A DNA stretch of 64,000 nt from Candidatus Gastranaerophilales bacterium. Lineage in GTDB: Bacteria > Cyanobacteriota > Vampirovibrionia > Gastranaerophilales > Gastranaerophilaceae. Location: contig CALVGZ010000007.1 in assembly GCA_944327225.1 (NCBI GenBank), positions 1-64,000 of the forward strand, written 5' to 3'. Shown here piece after piece: positions 2,348 through 9,266 of this stretch. Made by a program: the position numbers and the translations under genes. Position 1 is the first letter of the stretch; each line of letters starts with the position of its first letter. The notes under the pieces were generated by a model. The model was not told the origin of the DNA, did no database searches, and saw only the letters and a program-made list of their open reading frames with translations.

Positions 2348-2504
2348 CAGTACCAAAGACAGTTGGTGACTTAAAGTCTTAATTTCCAACCCAGGTTCAA
2401 AAGTTTATCAAATATACTTCTTGAGCTGTTTTGCGTACTACACTCGCAAAACTTTTTTAATATCAAAAGTTTGCGAAGTCTAAAAGAAAGGAGAAATTCG
2501 CAAA
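2348..2504 (+). ncRNA. L10-type ribosomal protein leader with attenuator
   Basis: The RNA begins with a hairpin typical of L10 leaders: CCAAAGACAG, then GTTGG (2362-2366) pairing with CCAAC (2386-2390), with GAC/GTC inside. It is followed by GTTTTGCG (2428-2435) pairing with CGCAAAAC (2445-2452) and six T residues (2453-2458), an intrinsic terminator upstream of rplJ. A further pair, TTTGCGAA (2470-2477) with TTCGCAAA (2497-2504), encloses the ribosome binding site AGGAG (2489-2493). L10 leaders are known to be bound by the L10-L12 complex and to give feedback control. The alternative pairings here are read from the sequence; the mechanism is inferred. Confidence 0.8.
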
Positions 2505-3057: not shown

Positions 3058-3435
3058 ATGAGTAATGTAGAAACTATTTTAGAATCAATTGAAAAATTAA
3101 CATTATTAGAAGCAGCAGAACTAGTTAAAGCTATGGAAGAAAAATTCGGTGTATCCGCTGCTGCTCCTGTTGCAGTTGCTGCCGCTCCGGCTGCGGGTGC
3201 TGCTGAAGCTGCTAGTGAAGCTCCTTCCGAAGTAAATGTTATCTTAGCTTCTGCCGGTGCTAACAAGATTCCGGTACTTAAATTAGTTCGTGAAATCACA
3301 GGTCTAGGCTTAAAAGAAGCAAAAGATTTAGTTGACGGAGCTCCAAAACCGTTAAAAGAAGGTGTAAAACCTGAAGAAGCTAAAGAAATTAAAGCTAAAT
3401 TAGAAGAAGCAGGAGCTACAGTTGAAATCAAATAA
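3058..3435 (+). CDS. rplL: 50S ribosomal protein L7/L12
   Basis: L7/L12 is the mobile stalk protein that recruits translational GTPases. It has 125 residues. Its layout is an N-terminal dimerisation helix ([28 protein letters not shown]), an Ala/Pro/Gly hinge at about 33-58, and a C-terminal factor-binding domain ([29 protein letters not shown]). It is translated from an ATG with AGAAAGG just upstream. It is the last gene of the rplJ-rplL unit and is closed by a strong terminator. Confidence 0.97.
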
Positions 3436-5749: not shown

Positions 5750-7243
5750 ATGAATGAAAATTACAAATCTTCATCAGATAAAGGTTTAGTAAATTATTTT
5801 GAAGATATAAATTTATCAAATATTGATAATAATCTGTCAAATTTTATTTCAATTATATCCGAAAGCATGAAAAGAACAATTGATAATGAAATATCAAACT
5901 ACGATATAGAATTATTTAACAAATTTATAGATAAAAAAAGTTTAAATATAGAAAATAACTATAAAGCAATATATGCTTTTGCTTTATATAGCATCTATCA
6001 AAAAAAGAAAAACCACAAACTTCATGTTATATACATTAATAAATTTTTATTATCGGATTTTTACGAAAAATTAAAACCTCTATATGATTTTCTTAACATA
6101 AAAGCAGAAATTAACCTAAACTATGATGATATGATTGAAGACAAAAACAACATAAAAACAAAAACGGAAATATATAAAGGGGATATTATTTTTGCAAATC
6201 TGGAAGAATTTTTACATGACTATGTAGTAAATATAGATATAGATAAAATTTCAGACAGAATTGATTTTAATTTTGATACAGCTTTCATTTTTGATATAGA
6301 CAATGTATTATATGACAGATACGAACATACATTTAAAATAAACGGTTATAATCTCAAAAGAAACGAACTAAAATTAAAAGACTTCTTTAAAAAATACAAA
6401 ACAATTCTTGGAGTTTCACCAGGTCTATTTTTTGAAAAATTATCACAAGCAAGAAAATATGATTTAAAAATAGAAAATCTTCCAGACAAAAATAAATTAT
6501 TGGAAAAAAATAAAGAAATTAAAAATCTATATTTTGTAAATAAACAAGAAAAAATTAAAAATATAGTACAAATCACAAAAGAATTGTCAGCCAAAAATAA
6601 AACAATAATAATAGATGCTAATGATGATTACGACTTAGAACTTTTAAAAAAATATCTAAATAATAACAAAATTAAATATGATATAATCAATAACTTTAAA
6701 ATTTCTAATAAAAAAATAATTGCACAGATGTTAATCGAAAAAAAAGTAACAATTCTTGCAAACCTAACTGACATATATATAAAACCAAAACTTGGCGGAG
6801 ATTATGAATATCTGGCTAAAATCAAAACATCTTCATACGGCATAGAACAAAATACAAACTTCTACAGAGAAAAATATAAATCAGAACTAAAAAAACAAAA
6901 AGAAAAAGCCGAACTAACCAAACAAAACATAATCAAAAATAATTCAATATATTTATTTTTTACTTCTAAATATCTGGAAATTAAAAACGAATATTTAACA
7001 ATCAACAACTATAGAGAATACATACAAAACGAAAATATCACAATATATAATTGCCCTGAAGATGAATTATATAAAAAATTTCACCTAAATAATCTTTCAA
7101 TTCTGCATTCATCTATGGATGAAAAAAATGAAAGTTTATTTAAAATTATAAATTTATACACTTTTTATTTAAGAAAATTTCTATTAAAAAAAATTATTAT
7201 GGAAAAACACAAATATCTAGAATATACTGTTAGTGACAATTAA
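5750..7243 (+). CDS. Degenerate SecA-like protein (pseudo-ATPase)
   Basis: About 497 residues that follow the order of SecA motor-domain landmarks while losing the catalytic ones. SecA pattern: IYAFALYSIYQ then HVIYINKFLLSDFYEKLKPLYDFLNI (after motif I), GDIIFANLEEFLHDYV (the TNNEFGFDYL region), FIFDIDNVLYDRYEH (the DEVDSILIDEAR region), a stretch like the linker into the second motor domain, and VTILANLTDIYIKPKLGG (the TNMAGRGTDIKLGG region). Walker A is absent (IENNYK in place of GEGKT), Walker B has DIDN for DEVD, and the arginine finger is lost. It is much shorter than SecA (800-900). The frame is intact, so it looks like a repurposed non-ATPase rather than a decaying gene. GTG at 5729 is an alternative start. 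Confidence 0.6.
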   Translation: MNENYKSSSDKGLVNYFEDINLSNIDNNLSNFISIISESMKRTIDNEISNYDIELFNKFIDKKSLNIENNYKAIYAFALYSIYQKKKNHKLHVIYINKFLLSDFYEKLKPLYDFLNIKAEINLNYDDMIEDKNNIKTKTEIYKGDIIFANLEEFLHDYVVNIDIDKISDRIDFNFDTAFIFDIDNVLYDRYEHTFKINGYNLKRNELKLKDFFKKYKTILGVSPGLFFEKLSQARKYDLKIENLPDKNKLLEKNKEIKNLYFVNKQEKIKNIVQITKELSAKNKTIIIDANDDYDLELLKKYLNNNKIKYDIINNFKISNKKIIAQMLIEKKVTILANLTDIYIKPKLGGDYEYLAKIKTSSYGIEQNTNFYREKYKSELKKQKEKAELTKQNIIKNNSIYLFFTSKYLEIKNEYLTINNYREYIQNENITIYNCPEDELYKKFHLNNLSILHSSMDEKNESLFKIINLYTFYLRKFLLKKIIMEKHKYLEYTVSDN

Positions 7244-7256
7244 TAAGAGAATAATG

Positions 7257-8252
7257 ATGACAAAAAGTTTTTTTAAATACAAAAATACAGAATGGACCTT
7301 GCCCTTACTTTTTCAATATGACGCCATTTGGGGTGCTATATATAAAACATTAAAAATGTATAATATAAAACCGCCGAAAGTAAATCTTTTCGGATCTCCC
7401 TCAGTTATATGGGCGGGAGGAAGAATGCCCGCATTATTCGGTAATTTTAATAAAGAAACTTTAAGCAAATGGTTTGGGTACATTAATGATTTAAACGCTT
7501 TTCCGACATTTACTTTTACATCAACAACCCTTACAAAAGATGATTTAAATGATAAATATGCAAATTTTATTTTAGAGACCTCATTTGAATATAATGCAAG
7601 ATACATTGTATACTCTGATTATTTAAGAGATTATATTAAAGAAAAAAATCCTGATGCAATAGTCATTGCTTCAGTTATAAAACCCAATTGCAGGTTTCAA
7701 GGTCCCGATAAAATTGAAGAACCAACAATTGAAAATGAAACAAATTACTATAACAAGTTGCTGAAAGAATACGATGTAGTTGTTGTAAGACCTGAATACT
7801 CTAAAGATATTTTACCATATCATCCGGAGTACATAGATGATATCTCAAGATTAGAAGTTTTAATTAATCAACCATGCATAAAAAACTGTCCTAAAATGCC
7901 TGAGCATTATAAGCATTTAGAAAAATTTAATTTAAATAGCAACCACAACGGGGAGTTTATTTGCATAAGAGTAAATATACCATGTACTATTTTGTACGAA
8001 AACAATCTTATACATGATCAAAAAACAGTAGAAAGACTTGTAGACATAGGTGTAAATAATCTTAAATTACAAGGAAGAAGTAATGGAATAACTTTGGAAT
8101 CATTAATGCTTATATTAGCTGATCAAATGTTTAACAGAGACGGTAACAATGAACTTATTATTAACGCAATGGAAAATAATCTGGGTTGGGAAATCAATAA
8201 TTTTAATCAAATAATAGGCGAACAAAAACAGCTTAGTTCACCCTATGCGTAG
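7257..8252 (+). CDS. Uncharacterised TIM-barrel-like protein, twin 1
   Basis: A 331-residue soluble protein, paralogous to the next gene. I do not recognise a named family with certainty. Segments such as VVVVRPEYSKDI and the cysteine motif CIKNC, with a further Cys-x6-Cys pair shared by both twins, faintly recall peptidase-U32/UbiU-V type barrels that hold a 4Fe-4S cluster. The ATG at 7257 is chosen because AAGAGA lies 6 nt upstream and because MTKSFFKYKNTEW then aligns with MTNKINKYENIEW of twin 2. ATGs at 7254 and 7233 are also in frame; the latter overlaps the SecA-like gene. Residues 91-226 are encoded by DNA identical to twin 2. Confidence 0.65.
   Translation: MTKSFFKYKNTEWTLPLLFQYDAIWGAIYKTLKMYNIKPPKVNLFGSPSVIWAGGRMPALFGNFNKETLSKWFGYINDLNAFPTFTFTSTTLTKDDLNDKYANFILETSFEYNARYIVYSDYLRDYIKEKNPDAIVIASVIKPNCRFQGPDKIEEPTIENETNYYNKLLKEYDVVVVRPEYSKDILPYHPEYIDDISRLEVLINQPCIKNCPKMPEHYKHLEKFNLNSNHNGEFICIRVNIPCTILYENNLIHDQKTVERLVDIGVNNLKLQGRSNGITLESLMLILADQMFNRDGNNELIINAMENNLGWEINNFNQIIGEQKQLSSPYA
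7527..7934. repeat. 408 bp perfect direct repeat, copy 1
   Basis: This stretch inside twin gene 1 is identical base for base, as far as I can see by eye, to 8535-8942 in twin gene 2, exactly 1008 bp away. Both flanks differ at about half of the amino acid positions. It spans 136 codons and stays in frame. Confidence 0.9.
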
Positions 8253-8264
8253 GAAAACAATAAA

Positions 8265-9266
8265 ATGACAAATAAAATTAATAAATATGAAAATATCGAA
8301 TGGGATATAAACCTGCTATTTCAATTTGAAACAATCTGGGGAACAATTTATAGAACTTTTGAATCGTACAATTTTCCTGTGCCAAACGTTAATTTATACG
8401 GAACCCCTTCAAATATCTGGGCAGGCGGACAGATTCCGGGTTTATACGGAGAATTTAAAAAAGAAACACTTGTAAATTTATTCAACTACTTAAAAGAATT
8501 AAATGCAAAACCAGCATTTAATTTTACAAATACTACCCTTACAAAAGATGATTTAAATGATAAATATGCAAATTTTATTTTAGAGACCTCATTTGAATAT
8601 AATGCAAGATACATTGTATACTCTGATTATTTAAGAGATTATATTAAAGAAAAAAATCCTGATGCAATAGTCATTGCTTCAGTTATAAAACCCAATTGCA
8701 GGTTTCAAGGTCCCGATAAAATTGAAGAACCAACAATTGAAAATGAAACAAATTACTATAACAAGTTGCTGAAAGAATACGATGTAGTTGTTGTAAGACC
8801 TGAATACTCTAAAGATATTTTACCATATCATCCGGAGTACATAGATGATATCTCAAGATTAGAAGTTTTAATTAATCAACCATGCATAAAAAACTGTCCT
8901 AAAATGCCTGAGCATTATAAGCATTTAGAAAAATTTAATTTAGACGCTAATCAAACTCATAACTTTACATGTGTTATGCAAAATATCCCATGCGAAATAT
9001 TATTCGAAAATAATTTAATACACAGTCAAGAAATAATAGAAAAACTTGTAAACAACGGCATAAAACACATAATTTTAACAGCAAGACAAAATAACTCGCA
9101 CCATTCTATACTATGTGAAATTTTTCAAACAATGTTTGATACGACAGGAAGTAATCATTTATTAATAACCGAAGCACTAACCTTTCATTTAAGAGAAGAA
9201 ATAAAATATTTCAATCAAATAATAGGAGATATCGAAGGACTTACTTCACCATTTACACTGGCGTAA
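8265..9266 (+). CDS. Uncharacterised TIM-barrel-like protein, twin 2
   Basis: A 333-residue paralogue of the preceding gene, separated from it by 12 bp, with AGGA upstream of its ATG. Its N-terminal 90 residues (WDINLLFQFETIWGTIYRTF, NLYGTPSNIWAGGQIPGLYG) and C-terminal 107 residues are only about half identical to twin 1. The middle (from TLTKDDLND to EKFNL) is identical. Conserved cysteines include 207 and 211 (CIKNC) and a later pair in FTCVMQNIPCEILFENN; these could bind an iron-sulfur cluster. The last 21 bp overlap the convergent maf gene. No function can be assigned. Confidence 0.65.
   Translation: MTNKINKYENIEWDINLLFQFETIWGTIYRTFESYNFPVPNVNLYGTPSNIWAGGQIPGLYGEFKKETLVNLFNYLKELNAKPAFNFTNTTLTKDDLNDKYANFILETSFEYNARYIVYSDYLRDYIKEKNPDAIVIASVIKPNCRFQGPDKIEEPTIENETNYYNKLLKEYDVVVVRPEYSKDILPYHPEYIDDISRLEVLINQPCIKNCPKMPEHYKHLEKFNLDANQTHNFTCVMQNIPCEILFENNLIHSQEIIEKLVNNGIKHIILTARQNNSHHSILCEIFQTMFDTTGSNHLLITEALTFHLREEIKYFNQIIGDIEGLTSPFTLA
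8535..8942. repeat. 408 bp perfect direct repeat, copy 2
   Basis: This is the second copy of the block described at 7527-7934. The abrupt edges (identity starts at ACCCTTAC and stops after TTTAATTTA) and the lack of any synonymous change point to recent gene conversion between the twins. Confidence 0.9.

Follow-up and report, generated by a model that had tools for sequence, protein, structure and literature searches.

A predicted L10-sensing attenuator in a Gastranaerophilales rplJ leader, with a downstream module that may couple translation to the termination decision

Introduction

Upstream of rplJ, the gene for ribosomal protein L10, a Candidatus Gastranaerophilales bacterium from the gut carries four short segments that can pair with one another in succession, and these raise the question of whether a single leader could control transcription and translation of L10 and L12 together. 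L10 leaders are widespread. In B. subtilis, experiments have established that the rplJL leader contains an anti-antiterminator (the L10 site), an antiterminator and a terminator that overlap in turn, and NusA was proposed to promote formation of the antiterminator (Yakhnin 2015, PMC4538822). In E. coli, rplJ is under translational control by L10(L12)4; the review that we use for this system describes the detailed mechanism as unresolved, the binding site being far from the start codon, and states that L10 leader mechanisms in other phyla need experiments (PMC10931766). Our literature search, which covered few subscription papers, found no publication on an L10 leader with combined control and none on ribosomal leaders in the Gastranaerophilales. 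We analysed the rplJ leader in the window, by which we mean the whole 64-kb stretch of DNA under study, together with its relatives in the same genus, family and order.

Results

The rplJ locus and the genomes compared

A preliminary description of this DNA had placed the four segments at 2428-2435, 2445-2452, 2470-2477 and 2497-2504, and these coordinates proved exact. We refer to them as segments 1 to 4 and to their pairings as 1:2, 2:3 and 3:4. The features of the locus, in window coordinates, are as follows.

2315-2342, + strand: promoter-like site, TTGACA-N16-TATTAT, 11 of 12 matches to consensus
2349-2363, + strand: predicted antiterminator 5' strand, AGUACCAAAGACAGU, overlapping the 5' strand of the L10 element and forming a duplex with 2425-2439
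2352-2396, + strand: predicted L10(L12)4-binding kink-turn element (anti-antiterminator), from the Rfam RF00557 match
2425-2439, + strand: predicted antiterminator 3' strand, overlapping the terminator 5' arm
2428-2458, + strand: predicted intrinsic terminator, with segments 1 and 2 as its arms (2428-2435 and 2445-2452) and a tract of six U at 2453-2458
2442-2479, + strand: predicted helix 2:3 (ON-state helix), 2442-2456 with 2465-2479, 14 bp, one-base bulges at 2448 and 2477
2469-2505, + strand: predicted Shine-Dalgarno (SD) hairpin, with 3:4 as basal stem (2470-2477 and 2497-2504, extended by G2469-U2505) and an inner stem in which UCU 2479-2481 pairs with AGA 2492-2494
2489-2493, + strand: SD sequence AGGAG, 13 nt upstream of the rplJ start codon
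2507-3028, + strand: rplJ (L10), reading frame with ATG at 2507-2509
3058-3435, + strand: presumably rplL (L7/L12), from reading frame and sequence

The RNA probably starts near 2349, since the promoter-like site ends at 2342; a consensus scan counted three promoter-like sites in the region against a mean of 2.8 in shuffles, which is no excess. As a whole the leader folds at -36.5 kcal/mol, more stable than its own shuffles (z = -2.63). The gap between the SD and the start codon (2494-2506) is 13 nt, longer than usual, and segment 4 sits in the extra room.

Two observations concern the window apart from the leader. Positions 1-126 have a G+C content of 64%, against 30% for the window, are followed by a short inverted repeat, and look foreign or repetitive. 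The adjoining genes at 7233-8252 and 8265-9266 share an identical 408-bp block (7527-7934 and 8535-8942) and differ at their ends; recent gene conversion, a partial duplication and an assembly artefact are alternative explanations.

For comparison we used 27 leaders from the window's genus (g1), in which a single-copy rplJ relative was found in 27 of 28 genomes, and 15 from a second genus (g36), giving 42 leaders together. An rplJ match was present in 274 genomes of the family, genus members included, and 60 of these were sampled from outside the genus; the sample comprised the nearest genera and at least one genome from each of the others. A tree of rplJ genes held 26 of the 27 genus genes and 14 of the 15 from g36, with G008 and G307 absent. 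All swap and shuffle tests across genomes ignore relatedness. One bin, G316, contained two different rplJ genes (contigs C126 and C129), 85% and 79% identical to that of the window, and is probably a mixed bin.

The leader contains a predicted L10 element, antiterminator and terminator

The leader matched the Rfam family L10_leader (RF00557) at 2335-2467, over the full length of the model (1-138), with 76.8 bits against a cut-off of 44 and with rplJ as the next gene. It was the sole Rfam family to reach its cut-off in the 64-kb window. The Rfam alignment sets the terminator hairpin on segments 1 and 2. As had been proposed, 1:2 has the sequence of a terminator, lying inside the L10_leader match and followed by six U. 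Over the 27 genus members, 100% of the cells in 1:2 were paired, with 2 two-sided changes. A simple consensus terminator scan reported no terminator at the leader because the loop of 1:2 (9) exceeds the loop limit of that scan (8).

In the window, 2349-2363 and 2425-2439 can form a duplex of -13.7 kcal/mol whose 13 pairs are interrupted by a 2x2 internal loop, and the corresponding strands pair in 42 of 42 leaders of g1 and g36. With relatedness ignored, the mean duplex energy was -12.36 kcal/mol in g1 against -5.96 for letter shuffles, and -14.14 kcal/mol in g36 against -4.89, none of 200 shuffled sets being as low in either genus. Within the genus, 94.0% of cells were paired with one two-sided change; covariation among the 27 members showed no excess over shuffles, and exchanging strands between genus genomes made no difference to pairing (p = 0.73, relatedness ignored). 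Further afield the pairing is kept with other letters: AGUAC:GUACU in the window corresponds to UGUAC:GUACA in g36 and G009, many other genera of the family have ACCGCAGAC:UUUUGCGGU, and an antiterminator-like CCACAGA:UCUGUGG was seen by eye in the order-level relative L005. An automated parse resolved 38 of 45 leaders outside g1 and g36, of which 18 were significant and many were mis-parsed.

An overlapping antiterminator of the B. subtilis type is thus present as predicted base pairing, and we consider it highly probable that L10 element, antiterminator and terminator together constitute an attenuator. The order of parts is that of B. subtilis rplJL, namely a kink-turn L10 element, an antiterminator sharing bases with both of its neighbours, a terminator and then rplJ (PMC4538822). 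The Bacillus leader in addition has a leader peptide whose SD lies in the 3' part of the terminator (PMC4538822), an accessory feature that is missing here: reading through 2428-2488 revealed no GGAG-like site.

The four segments are not expected by chance

Segments 1 and 2, and likewise 3 and 4, are perfect 8-bp complements. A quartet of this form, with two successive 8-bp hairpins whose inner arms share at least 6 complementary bases, arose in 1 of 20,000 dinucleotide shuffles of 2335-2520, and on both strands of the 64-kb window this one alone was found. The four-segment pattern is real, and a chance origin was rejected on these two counts. A general translation signal repeated at many genes was also rejected: GCGAAGUCU..AAAGAAAGGAG has one exact site, at rplJ, in each of 19 of the 28 genus genomes and none elsewhere in those 19.

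Helix 2:3 is conserved in two genera

Segments 2 and 3 had been described as complementary; within the octamers only 6 pairs are contiguous, and when extended the helix reaches 14 bp. In the window it is the best duplex between the terminator 3' arm plus U-tract and the downstream stretch (-11.9 kcal/mol). The preliminary description had named a lack of covariation, or absence from close relatives, as telling against the paired segments, and 2:3 withstands this check. The core CGC:GCG (UGC:GCA in G009) is retained in 42 of 42 leaders of g1 and g36. Exchanging segment 3 among g1 members weakened the mean energy from a cognate -10.15 to -9.33 kcal/mol, and 5,000 permutations never gave a value as low as the cognate one (p = 0.0002, the smallest that this test can return, relatedness ignored). 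Swapping within g36 gave pairing as good as cognate (p = 0.87).

Individual changes follow the helix. In G009, segment 1 has changed from GCG to GUA, segment 2 from CGC to UGC and segment 3 from GCG to GCA, and because the three changed together both 1:2 and 2:3 survive. In G063, of genus g37, UGUGC pairs with GCACA. Eight of the 27 genus members have UUUCUU instead of UUUUUU in the U-tract, and each time a G in segment 3 faces the C; the seven of these that are in the rplJ tree occupy three separate positions, two of them being G024 and G002 and the third a group of five.

Alignment-wide counts for the genus (MAFFT) gave 89.8% of 2:3 cells paired against 32.3-49.7% for slid controls. Covariation amounted to one two-sided change (G009), with measures not clearly above shuffles in the genus, since segment 2 hardly varies and the alignment breaks up segment 3 with gaps; such gaps also kept the U/C differences in the U-tract from registering as two-sided. 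Of 87 leaders submitted to an automated 2:3 test, 85 gave a result and 44 of those 85 had p < 0.05, namely 36 of 42 in g1 and g36 against 8 of 43 elsewhere in the family. These counts include several leaders in which the terminator was picked wrongly (e.g. G027, G022, G010, G191 and G170), and none was picked in G242 and G052.

Beyond these genera the downstream part thins out. In genera g3, g39 and g9 the automated test found only A/U-rich pairing with the U-tract. In the order-level relatives L005, L018, L019 and L030 the SD follows the terminator immediately, leaving no space for segments 3 and 4, and antiterminator-like pairing is retained by eye; another, L029, has a longer stretch behind the terminator. 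From this distribution, segments 3 and 4 seem to have been added later, in a few genera.

A hairpin at the Shine-Dalgarno sequence

In the window, the fold of 2469-2505 had a minimum free energy of -10.8 kcal/mol against -3.1 with segment 4 shuffled (p = 0.003). The idea that 3:4 masks AGGAG applies in part: the inner UCU:AGA stem pairs part of the SD, and most of AGGAG lies in the loop, outside segments 3 and 4. In g36 the inner stem is often CCUU with AAGG of the SD.

Taken singly, 3:4 or a substitute SD hairpin was significant in 12 of 27 genus members and in 0 of 15 in g36. Taken as a set, with relatedness ignored, the SD hairpins were more stable than 300 of 300 shuffled sets in each genus, and for the 3:4 pairing itself none of 200 shuffled sets was as stable in either g1 or g36. 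In the genus alignment, 54.6% of 3:4 cells were paired (25.9-41.5% for slid controls), and 12 cells carried changes in both partners, compared with 7.2 in shuffles (0 of 500), with relatedness not removed; part of these changes came from groups that use another partner, for example GAAGuCUU:AAGCUUC. The pairing is weak (above -3 kcal/mol) in 8 of the 42 leaders, and G003, nearest by gene tree, has lost several 3:4 pairs without compensation. The check on covariation and close relatives is thus passed only in part by 3:4: all five nearest relatives have it, G003 in the weakest form, and it is weak or missing in those 8 of 42. From this comparison 3:4 is real in the window's clade and in a second group, and variable elsewhere.

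Other sequences were seen near the SD. Within the 35 nt that precede the start codon, the 15 g36 leaders (L058-L071 and L074) have the SD inside CCCUUUAGAAAGGAG or a close variant of it; this sequence is a small self-complementary hairpin that would occlude some of the SD. A motif absent from the window's genus and its neighbours, AGGTCGATA or AGGTCGAAA, stands directly upstream of the rplJ SD in most of the family's distant genera (e.g. L087, L091, L104 and L107). Of 60 family genomes, 21 contain the form AGGTCGATA-N(4-30)-AAGGAGC, almost always as a single copy, and it is possibly a second, different regulatory element of rplJ.

Modelled access to the ribosome-binding site depends on segments 3 and 4

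We modelled two states in ViennaRNA, one mimicking bound L10 by making the L10 element unavailable and the other with the antiterminator formed, and calculated how much energy it takes to open the region between the SD and a point 13 nt beyond the beginning of the ATG. In these folding models the window cost 7.7 kcal/mol in the L10-bound mimic and 2.6 with the antiterminator formed. Genus means were 8.76 and 3.57 kcal/mol, the bound mimic being costlier by at least 1 kcal/mol in 26 of 27 members; for g36 they were 8.33 and 6.30 kcal/mol, the corresponding count being 12 of 15. The mean gap of 5.18 kcal/mol in the genus fell to 1.25 when segment 3 was shuffled, to 2.89 with segment 4 shuffled and to 0.51 with both, the largest gaps among 12 shuffled sets each being 1.76, 3.05 and 1.00, respectively. 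This control is our strongest result, and it indicates that the modelled coupling depends on both segments.

The route by which the site closes varies among the models, which use segment 3, segment 1 or the linker that precedes the terminator. Segment 1 and the linker are out of reach once the antiterminator forms, and segment 3 once helix 2:3 forms; the linker effect is partly a model rule, as no pseudoknots are allowed. The switch to ON costs 3:4 at least 2 bp in only 5 of 27 members, many of the others closing the site through segment 1 or linker sequence, and the modelled ON state of G023 and G008 retains 3:4; the total of upstream pairs made by the site is larger with L10 mimicked as bound for 25 of 27 members. 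For the window, the unconstrained fold at -36.5 kcal/mol is the OFF fold, and the ON fold is less stable at -31.1, so the ON state must be kinetic, depending on folding order, pausing or factors.

Discussion

We set out to ask whether one leader could act at both steps, as the preliminary description had proposed for L10-L12. What stands of that proposal is a modelled link between terminator and ribosome-binding site that needs segments 3 and 4; what falls is the assignment of 2:3 as the antiterminator. With somewhat better than even confidence, we interpret the leader as an L10(L12)4-sensing attenuator of the B. subtilis kind to which a downstream module, made of segments 3 and 4, couples translation.

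From the sequence, its complementarity and conservation, and the dependence seen in the models, we infer the following course of L10 binding, folding, termination and translation. With little free L10(L12)4 available, the 5' end of the leader (2349-2363) would take the terminator 5' arm (2425-2439), no terminator would form and polymerase would continue. The freed terminator 3' arm and U-tract would then take segment 3, forming helix 2:3, so that the terminator could not re-form; the same helix would hold segment 3 off segment 4 and leave the ribosome-binding site open. When L10(L12)4 is in excess and occupies the kink-turn element, segment 1 would take segment 2 and most transcripts would terminate. 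In those that escape, segment 4 would pair with segment 3 (or with segment 1) and the site would close. The leader 5' strand and segment 4 would thus vie for a partner, with L10 deciding which strand is left over.

Four other explanations were weighed. The leader may be a plain L10 attenuator of the B. subtilis kind, in which 2:3 merely locks the readthrough state, by occupying the terminator 3' arm or protecting the RNA end, and 3:4 is a quirk of the lineage with little effect on translation. Such a reading would draw on the best-supported parts of the leader (antiterminator, L10 element and terminator), and it agrees with 2:3 being more widespread than 3:4 and with segment 4 being absent or replaced in several lineages; against it, modelled access to the ribosome-binding site depends on segment 4 as well as segment 3, and as a set the SD hairpins beat shuffles in two genera. 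We regard it as unlikely, though a serious contender. That segments 3 and 4 are a decayed, functionless duplicate of the terminator hairpin, as their likeness to segments 1 and 2 might suggest, is very improbable: GCGAAG of segment 3 is kept amid diverging surroundings, segments 2 and 3 have changed together in G009 and G063, the quartet is rare by chance and the motif is found at rplJ only. The long, almost unbroken helix directly behind the terminator could also serve mainly in RNA processing or stability of the readthrough mRNA, as a double-strand cleavage site or a protective hairpin, a role that leaves the dependence of site opening on segment 4 unexplained and that we think very improbable. 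Finally, the original proposal that 2:3 is itself the antiterminator is hardly credible, for although 2:3 and 1:2 are mutually exclusive by sequence, the last U (2458) comes 12 nt before the beginning of segment 3 and 7 nt before the first base that 2:3 pairs there (2465), so that segment 3 is not yet transcribed when the terminator acts and 2:3 cannot be a classical antiterminator, and moreover a better antiterminator exists upstream (2349-2363 with 2425-2439) and L005, L018, L019 and L030 keep antiterminator-like pairing with no room for segments 3 and 4.

The attenuator with a coupled downstream module, which remains our preferred reading, can be set beside known leaders. In the B. subtilis trp leader, TRAP also controls access to the ribosome site of trpE. 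We know of no helix in that leader between the terminator 3' arm and downstream sequence. The likeness lies in one RNA-binding protein steering both the choice between terminator and antiterminator and the access of ribosomes to readthrough transcripts by refolding; protein, RNA target and operon are different (PMC4347634). The B. subtilis yxjB leader also has a terminator together with an SD-sequestering hairpin, and its control rests on pausing and on ribosomes that stall at a leader peptide, with no overlapping antiterminator identified (PMC6851288). With the E. coli rplJ leader the present one would share the protein, the kink-turn target and, in our model, translation as a regulated step; that leader works by translation (PMC10931766), and the present one has a predicted terminator-based switch as well. 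For B. subtilis rplJL, regulation is reported at the level of transcription (PMC4538822); here segments 3 and 4 come after the terminator. Control of L10 leaders at transcription in B. subtilis and at translation in E. coli was known already, as were leaders combining a terminator with control of the ribosome site (TRAP, yxjB).

There is also a wider reading, to which we would give even chances of being right. One L10 leader would unite the E. coli (translation) and B. subtilis (transcription) modes through five alternating strands (the leader 5' end and segments 1, 2, 3 and 4), of which exactly one is unpaired at a time, and L10 binding would pick whether this is the leader 5' end or the strand beside the start codon. 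The extension would have arisen within the Gastranaerophilaceae, by the addition of segments 3 and 4 between an older terminator and the SD.

If this is true, strands that relay the binding signal stepwise to the start codon would offer a concrete route by which a distant L10 site can act, and a transcription switch would be able to gain translation control through two short added segments. The leader is a simple, testable design from bacteria that have not yet been grown.
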